From NCBI GenBank assembly GCA_017396695.1, contig JAFQLC010000018.1:62001-126000 (forward strand): DNA of 64,000 bases, given 5' to 3'. Made by a program: the position numbers and the translations under genes. Under the pieces are notes generated by a model that ran no database searches, was not told the origin of the DNA, and saw only the letters and a program-made list of their open reading frames with translations. Origin of the DNA: a bacterium (lineage in GTDB: Bacteria; Cyanobacteriota; Vampirovibrionia; Gastranaerophilales; Gastranaerophilaceae). Shown piece after piece: positions 37,667 through 40,730 of this stretch (the stretch's first letter is position 1; each line of letters opens with the position of its first letter).

Positions 37667-37714
37667 GAAAATTTTTGCAAAAAACAAATTTTGCTAAAAA
37701 TTTTCCTCGCTCGT
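37667..37714. repeat. 48-bp hairpin repeat, copy 1
   Basis: Identical to 37901-37948. Its first 39 bp form an inverted repeat: GAAAATTTTTGC against GCTAAAAATTTTC with one bulged base. It ends CCTCGCTCGT. Confidence 0.85.
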
Positions 37715-37785
37715 ACGTAATCTAGTGTCGAAATGTCGAAAATTCATCATTTCCGCCATTTCTCACCTTTTATAGACTCGCTCGC

Positions 37786-37816
37786 TTAAATCTAGTGCAT
37801 CGCACTACGATTTTAA
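37786..37816. repeat. Palindromic module, copy 2
   Basis: TTAAATCTAGTGC and GCACTACGATTTTAA flank a short centre. It corresponds to 27564-27596 with small differences. Confidence 0.75.
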
Positions 37817-37829
37817 CTTTCGCCTATAA

Positions 37830-37901
37830 GGTACGGTTTCGCACAAGCATGCCAAACTCCTCATTTGCCATGCTTGTGCTCACACACCAAAGACTCGCTC
37901 G
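37830..37901 (+). repeat. Dispersed 72-bp element, copy C
   Basis: Differs from copy B at six positions. Here the inverted arms are perfect: GCACAAGCATG and CATGCTTGTGC, 11 bp, around the conserved centre. The changes in copy B break two of these pairs. Confidence 0.82.
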
Positions 37902-37948
37902 AAAATTTTTGCAAAAAACAAATTTTGCTAAAAATTTTCCTCGCTCGT
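37901..37948. repeat. 48-bp hairpin repeat, copy 2
   Basis: Exact second copy of 37667-37714, directly joined to the end of the 72-bp element, 234 bp from copy 1. Confidence 0.85.
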
Positions 37949-38029: not shown

Positions 38030-39160
38030 GTGCCTAAACTTTTGGAAAAGGTAAATAAAAAGAATAAAAGTTGCTCATATTTTTATTGGTTTGAGCAAAA
38101 ATTTACTTCGCTTGTTCAAGAATTTTTCCAAGATTTTTGGGAACAAACATTCGAAATTAAACTTCTTTCAATAACAAACAATCAAAACATAAAACAAGAT
38201 AAAATTTCATCTGGTGAAACATATTTTGCAAAGCCTGTTGCACATTTAACTAAAAATATAATATACAGACTTAATTCAGGTTTAATTAAAATAATTCTTG
38301 AAGGTTCTTTGGGGGTTAAAAACAAATTTTCAATCTCTAATTTAACTGATTTTGAGATTTATCTTATAGAGCATTTTGTAAATTCATTGAATGGTGAAAT
38401 AACAAAAATTTTGCGTTCACCTCAAACTATTCAAAAAAGAGAGCTAAAAAGCGAAGAAATTTACAATATTACTTTTGCTTTGATGAATGAAAAACAAATA
38501 TTAACCAAATTTGCAATTTCAATTCCTGCAGTTTTTGTTGAACCAGAGCCCGTTGCCGTTATTTGGAATGAGGCTATTGCTTCTAATTCGATTAGCACAT
38601 ATATGAGAGTTAGGGCTGGTAGCACAAGGCTAATGTTGAATGAAATTAAGGCTTTAGATGTTGATGATATTATACTTTTGGAAAAAAGTCAGATTAATAA
38701 AATGTATGTCGTAAATGGCAATTTTTCATACGAATTCAAAGTAAATCCTGATCCTTCGATTATGTTGGATTTAGACGAAGATGAACACGACACAGGGGGC
38801 GATATAATGAGCGATAAAAATATGTGGGATGATATTCAAATTGAAGTGTCTGCCGAGTTTGACAAAGTGAAAATGTCTCTTGGTGAATTAAAACAAATGA
38901 CAACAGGCATGGTGGTTGACCTCGCAGATGCGTTTAATGATAAAATTTCTTTGCTTGTTGAAGATAAAATTGTTGCCAAAGGTGATTTGGTTATTATAAA
39001 TGATAGATATGGCGTAAGACTTACAGAAATTATCTCAGAACCTGCTCAAGGTGGTTCACCAAAGGCTATGCCTGCCTCTGCACCTGCACCTCATGCAGAG
39101 CCAACTCAAAATGCTGAAGAAGATTTTGATTACTCAGATTTTGAAGATGAAGGGCACTAA
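38030..39160 (+). CDS. FliN/FliM/SctQ-like C-ring protein
   Basis: The 376-aa protein has a C-terminal SpoA (FliN/SctQ) domain at about 264-340 (IQIEVSAEFDKVKMSLGEL, GDLVIINDRYGVRLTEII), followed by an Ala/Pro and acidic tail. A weaker SpoA-like region may lie at about 190-245. In flagella and injectisomes this domain builds the cytosolic ring that docks export substrates. The N-terminus lacks the EIDALL-type CheY-binding motif of FliM, so a switch role is doubtful. The start is GTG at 38030 with AGTAGGG upstream. It heads a four-gene run with fliO, fliP and fliQ (gap of 2 nt to fliO). Whether to call it FliN, FliM or SctQ is open. Confidence 0.78.
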   Translation: MPKLLEKVNKKNKSCSYFYWFEQKFTSLVQEFFQDFWEQTFEIKLLSITNNQNIKQDKISSGETYFAKPVAHLTKNIIYRLNSGLIKIILEGSLGVKNKFSISNLTDFEIYLIEHFVNSLNGEITKILRSPQTIQKRELKSEEIYNITFALMNEKQILTKFAISIPAVFVEPEPVAVIWNEAIASNSISTYMRVRAGSTRLMLNEIKALDVDDIILLEKSQINKMYVVNGNFSYEFKVNPDPSIMLDLDEDEHDTGGDIMSDKNMWDDIQIEVSAEFDKVKMSLGELKQMTTGMVVDLADAFNDKISLLVEDKIVAKGDLVIINDRYGVRLTEIISEPAQGGSPKAMPASAPAPHAEPTQNAEEDFDYSDFEDEGH

Positions 39161-39162
39161 GA

Positions 39163-39552
39163 ATGCTTAAATATCTTATTACATTTTCCGTTTATACTCT
39201 TGCGATGATTGGTGTTATCTTCATTGCTTTTGTAGTGTGGAAAAATTCTTTAAATTTTGGACCTAAAAATAAGCAAAGTTCTATCATAATTGAAGAATCT
39301 TTGAGTTTAAACCCAAGAAAAACTCTTTATGTAATAAGAATTAAAAATGAAAGATTTTTGATTGCTTCAGACATTGATAAAACAACATTTCTAGCGAAAC
39401 TTGAAGGTGATGAAACCATTGCAGATTTTAAAGATGTGAAACAACCTAAAATACAAAATTCTGAAAATATTGCAGAATATACAACAGGTGAAAGTTTTTC
39501 AATGCATAAGCTTTTGAATAAATTGTCTAAAGATACTGAGGGTGAGGAATAA
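39163..39552 (+). CDS. fliO: FliO-like export assembly factor
   Basis: A 129-aa protein with one N-terminal membrane segment (about 4-26, LITFSVYTLAMIGVIFIAFV). It has the short FliO beta domain after it: IIEESLSLNPRKTLYVIRIK and NERFLIASDIDKTTFLAKL. FliO assists assembly of the FliP ring in flagella and is not part of standard injectisomes, so its presence argues for a flagellar-type system. It sits between the C-ring gene and fliP, the order seen in flagellar operons. Confidence 0.82.
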   Translation: MLKYLITFSVYTLAMIGVIFIAFVVWKNSLNFGPKNKQSSIIIEESLSLNPRKTLYVIRIKNERFLIASDIDKTTFLAKLEGDETIADFKDVKQPKIQNSENIAEYTTGESFSMHKLLNKLSKDTEGEE

Positions 39553-39553
39553 A

Positions 39554-40195
39554 ATGGAAACAGTTTTAAAAGATTTAAATCCCGTTCTTCAGTTATTAAT
39601 TGTGATGGCGACATTCAGCCTCATACCTTTTATTTTTGTGTGTCTAACACCATTTTTAAGGTATGTGATTGTGTTTAGTATGTTCAAAACTGCAATTGGT
39701 ACTCAAACTGTGCCTCCTGCAATGGTTTTGATTGGGCTTTCTATCATTCTTACTTTTTATTCTATGGCGCCTGTGTTTGACCAAATGTATAAGGCAGGTT
39801 CTGTGCCTTATCAAAAAAATGGAGATATGGTGCTTGCAATTCAAGAGGGTTCAAAGCCTCTGAAAGAATTTATGCTTAAAAATACACGGGAAGCTGACCT
39901 TGCGTTTTTTGTTGAAAAAGCGCGTGGCAAAGCACCGAACACGCCTGAAGAGTTAACTTTATGGGAAGTGGCTCCTGCGTTTATTATAAGCGAACTTAAA
40001 ACTGCGTTTGAAATTGGGTTTATAATATACATACCATTTATTGTGTTAGACCTTGTTGTTGCGAACATTTTGCTGGCACTCGGTATGTTTATGCTTTCTC
40101 CAACGATTATTTCTCTGCCTTTTAAACTGTTGATATTTATTGCGGTAGATGGTTGGAGCTTGATTGTTAAAGGTCTTGTGGAGAGTTTTAACTGA
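39554..40195 (+). CDS. fliP: FliP/SctR-family export gate protein
   Basis: A 213-aa integral membrane protein of the type III export gate. Family blocks are clear: FLRYVIVFSMFKTAIGTQ, PPAMVLIGLSIILTFYSMAP, FIISELKTAFEIGFIIYIPF and ISLPFKLLIFIAVDGW. No cleavable signal peptide precedes the first segment, unlike many flagellar FliP and like SctR. I start at 39554, with GAGGAAT before the ATG. The stop overlaps the fliQ start by 1 nt (TGATG), so translation is coupled. FliR, FlhB and FlhA are not in the window. Confidence 0.93.
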   Translation: METVLKDLNPVLQLLIVMATFSLIPFIFVCLTPFLRYVIVFSMFKTAIGTQTVPPAMVLIGLSIILTFYSMAPVFDQMYKAGSVPYQKNGDMVLAIQEGSKPLKEFMLKNTREADLAFFVEKARGKAPNTPEELTLWEVAPAFIISELKTAFEIGFIIYIPFIVLDLVVANILLALGMFMLSPTIISLPFKLLIFIAVDGWSLIVKGLVESFN

Positions 40196-40686
40196 TGGAA
40201 GTTTTAATGGAATATTTGGCAAAAGGCTTTGTTGTCATGTTAATGGTTTCTCTCCCTTGTGTGCTTGTTGCTGCAAGCATTGGTCTTGTTGTTGGTATTT
40301 TGCAAGCTGTAACCCAAGTTCAAGAACAAACAATTGCTGCTGCACCTAAGATTTTGTGCGTGTTTTTAACAATCATTATTCTTGGTGGGTGGTACACAAA
40401 AACTTTAACAGACTTTTTAATTGAAGGAACAGGAATTGCGTTTAATGTTGTTCCGAAATCTGAAAATTATGTTCTTCCTCCTGATTATTTTAAACATACA
40501 AAACCTTTCATAAAAGAATTTTATGCAGGCCCTGGGGCATTAGAAGGTAAAATTAAAAGTTCTCCTCCGCATCCATCTGAAGTTTCTAAAACTGGCGAAT
40601 TTCACTCTGGCGGGCCAGCTTATGAGCCAGGGGGAGCTAATTTGCTTGAGAGAATGCAGATGAACAAAAACAGGCAAGGGAAATAA
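40195..40686 (+). CDS. fliQ: FliQ/SctS-family export gate protein with long C-terminal tail
   Basis: The first 85 residues are a standard FliQ: two membrane hairpin helices with LVAASIGLVVGILQAVTQVQ and EQTIAAAPKILCVFLTIIIL. FliQ and SctS are normally about 85-90 aa; this protein is 163 aa, with about 78 extra residues of polar Pro/Gly/Lys-rich sequence (PKSENYVLPPDYFKH onward). No family was recognised in the tail. A second ATG four codons in is an alternative start. A terminator follows at 40705, so the run ends here without fliR. Confidence 0.9.
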   Translation: MEVLMEYLAKGFVVMLMVSLPCVLVAASIGLVVGILQAVTQVQEQTIAAAPKILCVFLTIIILGGWYTKTLTDFLIEGTGIAFNVVPKSENYVLPPDYFKHTKPFIKEFYAGPGALEGKIKSSPPHPSEVSKTGEFHSGGPAYEPGGANLLERMQMNKNRQGK

Positions 40687-40704: not shown

Positions 40705-40730
40705 AAAACCCTCAAAATTTTGAGGGTTTT
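40705..40730. terminator. Bidirectional terminator between fliQ and the 80-aa gene
   Basis: A perfect 26-nt palindrome: AAAACCCTCAAAA followed by its exact complement. A-run and T-run flanks allow use in both directions by the two convergent units. Confidence 0.88.

Follow-up and report, generated by a model that had tools for sequence, protein, structure and literature searches.

A second, paralogous flagellar-type export gene set in Candidatus Gastranaerophilales: a predicted non-rotating, filament-less machine

Four adjacent genes, coding for a C-ring-like protein with SpoA stretches and for FliO, FliP and FliQ, lie at positions 38030 to 40686 of the DNA analysed here, a 64,000-nucleotide stretch of contig JAFQLC010000018.1 (assembly GCA_017396695.1, family Gastranaerophilaceae) that we refer to as the window. 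Does such a short cluster belong to an ordinary flagellum, is it a leftover of one, or does it serve another machine? A preliminary description of this DNA had suggested a non-motile or divergent type III export system, a suggestion supported here by paralogy to the flagellum and by retention in relatives that carry neither flagellin nor MotB. We consider it probable that the window operon is one of several gene groups that make up a second flagellar-type export system, paralogous to the flagellum and predicted to be a non-rotating machine without a filament. In the following, the flagellar set of the genome is called A and the paralogous set, to which the window operon belongs, is called B. 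The operon is made up as follows (aa, amino acids; ORF, open reading frame):

38030..39160, + strand: SpoA_B, C-ring/sorting-platform protein, 376 aa; N-terminal region and two SpoA stretches, no EIDALL-type motif
39163..39552, + strand: FliO_B, 129 aa; Pfam FliO 7.8e-6, above the Pfam cut-off
39554..40195, + strand: FliP_B, gate subunit, 213 aa; lacks the N-terminal extension seen in flagellar FliP; Pfam FliP 1e-68
40195..40686, + strand: FliQ_B, gate subunit with a C-terminal tail, 163 aa; Bac_export_3 5.6e-22 over residues 5-75
40705..40730, no strand assigned: symmetric, terminator-like hairpin of 11 pairs, between FliQ_B and a convergent small ORF

As first described, the four genes are adjacent and coupled, with gaps of 2 bases (SpoA-FliO) and 1 base (FliO-FliP) and a 1-base overlap (FliP-FliQ), and Pfam supports all four.

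Two gene sets in one genome and across the order

The assembly comprises 1.36 Mb in 28 contigs and is 80% complete; the window is a stretch of its contig C13. Regarding the absence of FliR, FlhA, FlhB, rod, hook and filament genes, the first description was right for the window, where none of the ORFs in 64 kb, read by eye, was identified as a rod, hook, filament, FlhA or FlhB gene. It did not hold for the genome, in which both kinds of FlhA-type and FlhB genes are present, together with two FliF genes, a single FliR, FlgB, FlgC, stators and 14 flagellin-domain matches. According to the first description, a complete flagellar gene set elsewhere in the genome would reduce the cluster to an ordinary dispersed operon. 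Flagellar genes do occur elsewhere, but they do not make the window operon ordinary, because they form a different, paralogous set.

In the case of set A, a second FliP stands with FliQ, FlhB and FlhA on C15. Contig C25 carries FlgB-FlgC-FliE-FliF-FliG-FliH-FliI and C6 carries MotA-MotB-FliL-FliN. A second FliE-FliF-X-FliH group, X being a protein in the fliG position, is found on C20, a second FlhB (FlhB_B) stands with MotA and MotB on C17, the single FliR is on C9, and the end of C1 holds the C-terminal part of a second FlhA (FlhA_B), of which no other piece is known. FliF, FliE, FliH, FlhB, MotA, MotB, MinC and the FlhA part were confirmed by Pfam, and several other names come from reading the translation. 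FliM was not recognised elsewhere in this genome, although no individual searches were made for flagellar FliM, hook, P/L-ring and cap genes. On C20 (L030:6805-9853), MinC, MinD and MinE directly follow FliH_B, at the place where relatives carry FlhA_B. The flagellin-domain matches (C1:22935, C11:7 and on other contigs) lie in part in open frames of more than 1600 aa, in a genome that is small.

Across the order, set B is retained almost universally. FliP was found in 145 of 146 Candidatus Gastranaerophilales genomes. Among the matches listed, where the second copy of some genomes was not seen row by row, 94 genomes have a single FliP match, always between 1e-65 and 1e-71 and thus of the B kind (window FliP, 6e-69), and 51 have two or three matches, one of them at 2e-77 or better. 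FliF, found in 144 of the 146, falls into two classes separated by a gap: 53 genomes have a match of 4e-48 or better, and in the other class no match is better than 2e-37. Three of the 94 genomes with only B-type FliP (G009, G024 and G028) carry FliF of the flagellar class, which leaves 91 genomes without either flagellar marker.

Twelve of these 91 B-only genomes and 12 genomes with both sets, picked for few contigs and a spread of genera, were then looked at in detail. Flagellin and MotB were each found in none of the 12 B-only genomes versus all 12 with both sets, and the genome of the window has both. All 12 B-only genomes nevertheless keep FlhA, FlhB, FliF and FliP. One strong FlhB match is present in 12/12 B-only genomes and two in 11/12 with both sets (one in G086), and full-length FlhA_B occurs in 24/24. 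In a FlhA_B search of named genomes, the best among the matches listed came from 12 loci (70-78% identity), most of which bear the title Candidatus Gastranaerophilales or gut bacterium. The FlhA_B fragment of our genome is 74-86% identical to the FlhA_B of these loci. FlhA_B of one Gastranaerophilales record (L098) is identical to that of G112, a member of the window's family. A record titled 'uncultured Acinetobacter sp. RUG672' (L101, ONVC01000010.1) contains a typical Gastranaerophilales B operon and is probably mislabelled. Soluble proteins that consist of the cytoplasmic FlhA domain alone, with no membrane part, were also observed (L017:9898-11352 on C25 and L018:9095-9979 on C20 of our genome). 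All 24 genomes checked, B-only ones included, have a soluble FlhA-C paralogue with a length of about 490-520 aa.

Descent of set B

Trees were rooted on rhizobial SctV/SctR, with only two to three outgroups and no myxococcal rows; the flagellar rows were sampled for their similarity to FlhA_B. Of the 47 outgroup loci with all four genes, 24 were used, as were 24 of the 51 outgroup FliP sequences. In the FlhA tree, the FliP tree and a joint FlhA/FlhB/FliP/FliR tree, B falls outside all sampled flagellar proteins, the order's own A included. The flagellar side of the FlhA tree with 96 rows has a support of 97 in the Shimodaira-Hasegawa-like approximate likelihood ratio test (SH-aLRT), and a mixture model on 45 rows gives 86/79. 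The four-gene joint tree (40 rows) reaches 99 SH-aLRT, and in it the window, represented by two of the four genes, groups with B of G091 at 99. A phylogeny of FliP, which had been proposed beforehand as part of a check, places B of the relatives together with the window outside flagellar FliP (54 rows, 100/98).

A recent duplication inside the order, which would make A and B sisters, was also considered. This constraint costs 11 log units for FlhA (approximately unbiased test, AU, p 0.106), 14 for FliP (AU p 0.051) and 21 for the four genes (AU p 0.027). It is thus mildly rejected by the four-gene set and rejected neither by FlhA alone nor by FliP alone. B may also have arisen within the lineage and then changed fast, because long branches meet in the trees (a warning given by the tool) and outgroups are few. 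In the FlhA trees, a stand-alone Caenarcanales FlhA of 44% identity (L108:9899-12013) groups with B; no other export gene was recognised within 10 kb of it.

Gene content of the loci and protein X

The organisation seen in the window recurs in the relatives. SpoA-FliO-FliP-FliQ is found in 24/24 fetched FliP_B loci, and FliR comes next in 23 of them, the remaining one being ended by the contig. The main B operon of the relatives has the order FliE-FliF-X-FliH-FlhA, with all five genes in 14/14 B-only loci. FliE was found in these 14 and in 9 of 11 main loci from genomes with both sets. The cluster had been called truncated. This does not apply to the family, in which FliR follows and FlhA, FlhB, FliF, FliE and FliH stand elsewhere, and it fits the present assembly insofar as B FliR is missing from it. 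Altogether, the flagellar export gate FlhA, FlhB, FliP, FliQ and FliR, together with FliF and FliE, is complete in relatives, and our genome has all of it but FliR_B, with FlhA_B partial. FliF_B and FlhA_B are on separate contigs here, unlike in most relatives.

Loci differ more in their accessory genes. FlgB or FlgC occurs in 1/14 B-only main loci versus 6/11 others; rod proteins and FliI occur in 1/14 and a lytic transglycosylase in 3/14 of the former, whereas among the latter 11 loci, 5-6 have rods, 7 have FliI and 8 have the transglycosylase. A sigma-factor-like gene follows FlhB_B in 22 of 23 loci, the place being taken by MotA-MotB in our genome, and FliJ-, FliK- and short FlgE-like genes stand near FlhB_B in several B-only genomes. 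Between fliQ and fliR, 17 of 24 B loci have a short ORF with a signal-like start (e.g. L182:5099-5467, L193:1980-2585), which is missing from the window. It matches CagX of the VirB9 family in 6/17 cases (best 9.4e-8) and T2SS-T3SS_pil_N, a secretin-associated domain, in 6/17 (best 5e-5), at E values of up to 0.1. These matches are weak to moderate, and the ORF often ends in an ELDxPP-like motif.

The proteins of the window operon are themselves different from standard flagellar ones. SpoA_B matches Pfam FliMN_C at 3.6e-22 over its two stretches, and its scores against the SctQ and FliN models are under the cut-off. The lack of a CheY-binding EIDALL-type motif, noticed at the outset, extends to all 25 SpoA_B proteins, compared with 59 ORFs from flagellar loci of the outgroup in which a FliM-type version occurs; this motif is dispensable in some flagella. 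FliP lacks a signal peptide, as first described, and B FliPs are short, with 212-215 aa in 15/15 B rows versus 250-277 aa in 13/13 flagellar rows of the order. FliP_B scores above the NCBIfam cut-off for flagellar FliP and slightly below that for SctR; its ATG start is at 39554, with the listed GTG ORF beginning at 39542. FliQ_B of relatives mostly has 146-184 aa. As for the strong terminator that was said to end the unit, the hairpin at 40705-40730 is there, but the terminator scan reports it for the minus strand and not for the plus strand, so that it resembles a terminator without being a textbook one for this operon.

Protein X (187-365 aa in the loci read) occupies the place that fliG has in the A operon, between FliF and FliH. 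It has no significant family match: in Pfam, FliG_M was found in 1/11 rows at 0.036 and MgtE_N in 4/11, at best 0.0057. An identification of X as FliG by sequence was discarded, hhalign giving a probability of 6% at best and the profile against sequences of the Protein Data Bank nothing relevant. A predicted model from 11 rows has a predicted local distance difference test score (pLDDT) of 83, and the C-terminal half alone one of 85. With the whole model, Foldseek returned no match under 0.001 and unrelated helical proteins at the top ranks, and VIA placed three FliG chains at ranks 37, 40 and 42. With the C-terminal half, six of 11 Foldseek matches were FliG, the first at E 0.59, and VIA placed FliG at ranks 1-5, the best being the FliF-bound N-domain of FliG (Z 6.3 over 72 residues). 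By predicted fold, X resembles only the N and M parts of FliG. Because of the gene place and the agreement of several FliG entries, the models make it likely that X is a FliG-N-like, FliF-binding adaptor.

What set B may build

The operon is real, stands outside the motility flagellum and is more than a residue; most likely, set B is an export machine without filament and stators, made from flagellar-type parts. In such a machine, FliP, FliQ and FliR with FlhB would form the gate, the building of which FliO would assist. This gate would be seated in the FliF ring with FliE on top, and substrates would be delivered by the cytoplasmic ring of FlhA, by SpoA_B and by FliH, with FliI and FliJ where present. 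X, with its FliG-N-like domain, would bridge FliF to SpoA_B. It would lack the torque domain of FliG, which is why we predict a protein exporter without rotation. Fuller members also have rod-like proteins and the lytic transglycosylase, which point to a short axial structure that crosses the wall.

Several observations weigh against this picture. FliR_B was not found in a profile search of our contigs, and since the family model gives a FliR_B 179 bits, that search should have seen one. The sole FliR of the genome has 39% identity to a flagellar FliR and 29-30% to B FliRs, so it is nearer the flagellar kind. FliR_B may be in the missing fifth of the assembly, the flagellar FliR may serve both sets, or B may be in the course of being lost here. 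FlhB_B adjoins MotA-MotB in this genome, and FlhA_B is seen only as a C-terminal part at a contig end. The match of X to FliG is weak by score (E 0.59, Z 6.3) and below the tool's safe level for helical folds. In 13/14 B-only loci the main operon has neither rods nor FliI, which also fits slow decay. A further limit is the reach of the negative results: with the reference set used, no secretin was recognised in the fetched B loci, to which that search was confined, and no FliG_A-like ORF in the 25 main B loci; FliG, P/L rings and hook were not searched genome-wide in B-only genomes.

Could the window genes instead be a dispersed operon of the motility flagellum, providing an alternative C-ring and gate for one organelle? 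The flagellar genes and flagellin-domain matches of the genome, the neighbourhood of FlhB_B and the stator genes, the unrecognised FliM, and a single FliR that might be common to both sets would fit. However, the flagellum owns separate FliP, FliQ, FlhA, FlhB and FliF genes, and B is kept in all 12 sampled genomes without flagellin and MotB and stays apart from A in all trees, so that we regard a shared flagellum as very unlikely. An explanation closer to the literature, of which excerpts of the papers are used here, is a decaying flagellum: partial sets in non-flagellated Gastranaerophilales were interpreted as loss (PMC4040986, PMC3787301) and have been termed non-functional flagella in earlier papers, and B-only main operons mostly lack rods and FliI, as our genome lacks FliR_B. 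Against this, what is retained is not orthologous to the flagellum of the relatives. Flagellated relatives carry both sets, with B beside an intact flagellum, and B-only genomes carry the B kind. Moreover, frames are intact and FliP and FliF are almost never missing, whereas remnants should vanish patchily. The published reduced flagellum is thus, in our reading, a distinct paralogous system, and decay is improbable.

Set B could also be the platform of some other inner-membrane structure, such as a hat-like structure or a nanotube base, rather than an exporter with an axial structure. The excerpted PMC9380563 reports a hat-like structure for which FlhA and FliP are required and whose function is given there as unknown, and it mentions nanotubes; B-only genomes retain gate, FliF and SpoA without a filament, and the soluble FlhA-C paralogue is universal in the sample. 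Yet FliE and FliH are retained in 14/14 B-only loci and FliJ-, FliK- and FlgE-like genes occur near FlhB_B in several, which fits ordered export of axial proteins, and the hat-like structure was seen in species whose flagellar export system is a standard one, and persists without FliF (PMC9380563). We therefore give such a platform little chance as well.

An export machine of this kind has no exact counterpart among the systems compared. With the bacterial flagellum it has in common FliO, FliP, FliQ, FliR, FlhA, FlhB, FliE, FliH and a FliF with the C-terminal M-ring domain, in some members also rod proteins and FliI. It differs in the separate tree branch, in X replacing FliG, in the shorter FliP, in the lack of the EIDALL-type motif and in B-only genomes without flagellin and MotB. 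The injectisome likewise has a two-SpoA protein (SctQ) without CheY motif, a short FliP and no stators; in contrast to it, B has FliO, FliE and a FliF with the flagellar C-terminal domain, and no secretin gene in the loci seen. Non-flagellar type III secretion systems (T3SS) are recognised by core sct homologues and the absence of fliE, flgB and flgC (PMC3459982). The former are present in relatives (FliF, SpoA, FliP, FliQ, FliR, FlhB and FlhA, with FliI in some), and the latter does not hold for the B loci. Regarding the Myxococcales T3SS*, an export core and sorting platform without needle, filament and stators are again common to both (PMC3459982, PMC12075869). These systems are defined by a core without secretin, needle, FliE, FlgB and FlgC; B retains FliE and partly FlgB, FlgC, FlgF and FlgG, all missing there, and is spread over several loci. 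FliO had been taken as a sign of flagellar origin, which is weaker than claimed, as FliO is reported in Myxococcota, these systems included, and in other non-flagellar systems (PMC12248157).

More tentatively, and with doubts that outweigh our confidence, B may be an ancient third type III export lineage, neither flagellum nor injectisome, which split off ahead of the diversification of the sampled flagellar gates and persisted across an order of non-photosynthetic Cyanobacteria. Its FliF would be tied to the C-ring by an adaptor of its own, in which a new helical domain carries a FliG-N fold. All members would have the soluble paralogue of the FlhA ring, and many a periplasmic protein resembling VirB9/secretin-N, the gene of which lies between fliQ and fliR. 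Such a machine would export proteins without rotation. If functional, B would be a natural flagellum-like apparatus with neither filament nor motor, near the postulated intermediate between flagellum and injectisome, and its placement outside the sampled flagellar gates offers a new way to work out in which order type III systems evolved. Nearly all members of an order that is common in animal guts seem to carry an export machine that published work has treated as broken flagella. For motility prediction, FliP, FliF, FlhA or FlhB need not imply a flagellum in these bacteria, nor need missing flagellin imply decay.

Previous reports touch on the same genes. For ACD20, a list of 13 shared flagellar genes by Di Rienzi et al. 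includes two flhA genes. MEL.A1 is reported to lack P and L rings (FlgI, FlgH) (PMC3787301), and a termite-gut member is described as likely motile (PMC5877343), in each case as excerpted. Among the papers listed in searches on Gastranaerophilales, Melainabacteria or Vampirovibrionia, not all of which were read, no title or abstract opening described a second system; most subscription journals lay outside these searches.

Some further features were noted around the loci. On the flanks of the main B operon (L079, L083, L087, L234, L243), genes resembling type IV prepilins make up 6/107 unlabelled ORFs versus 9/839 elsewhere (p 0.004); this comparison was chosen post hoc and is kept as a lead. 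In Myxococcus, a needle-less T3SS* is reported to be coupled to a Tad pilus (PMC12075869, excerpt). An SFKG-like N-terminal stretch was considered as an export signal and rejected as nonspecific, 21 occurrences near N-termini versus 6.9 expected being the same ratio as in control bacterial loci (10 versus 2.9). An adenylate-kinase-like protein (L030:16340-17059) has an N-terminal extension ending in an SFTG stretch, a kind of start that several proteins share and that is not specific versus the control loci. In the window itself, an AT-rich intergenic stretch at 37667-37947 contains, by eye, two repeat copies reading GAAAATTTTTGCAAAAAACAAATTTTGCTAAAAATTTTCCTCGCTCG.

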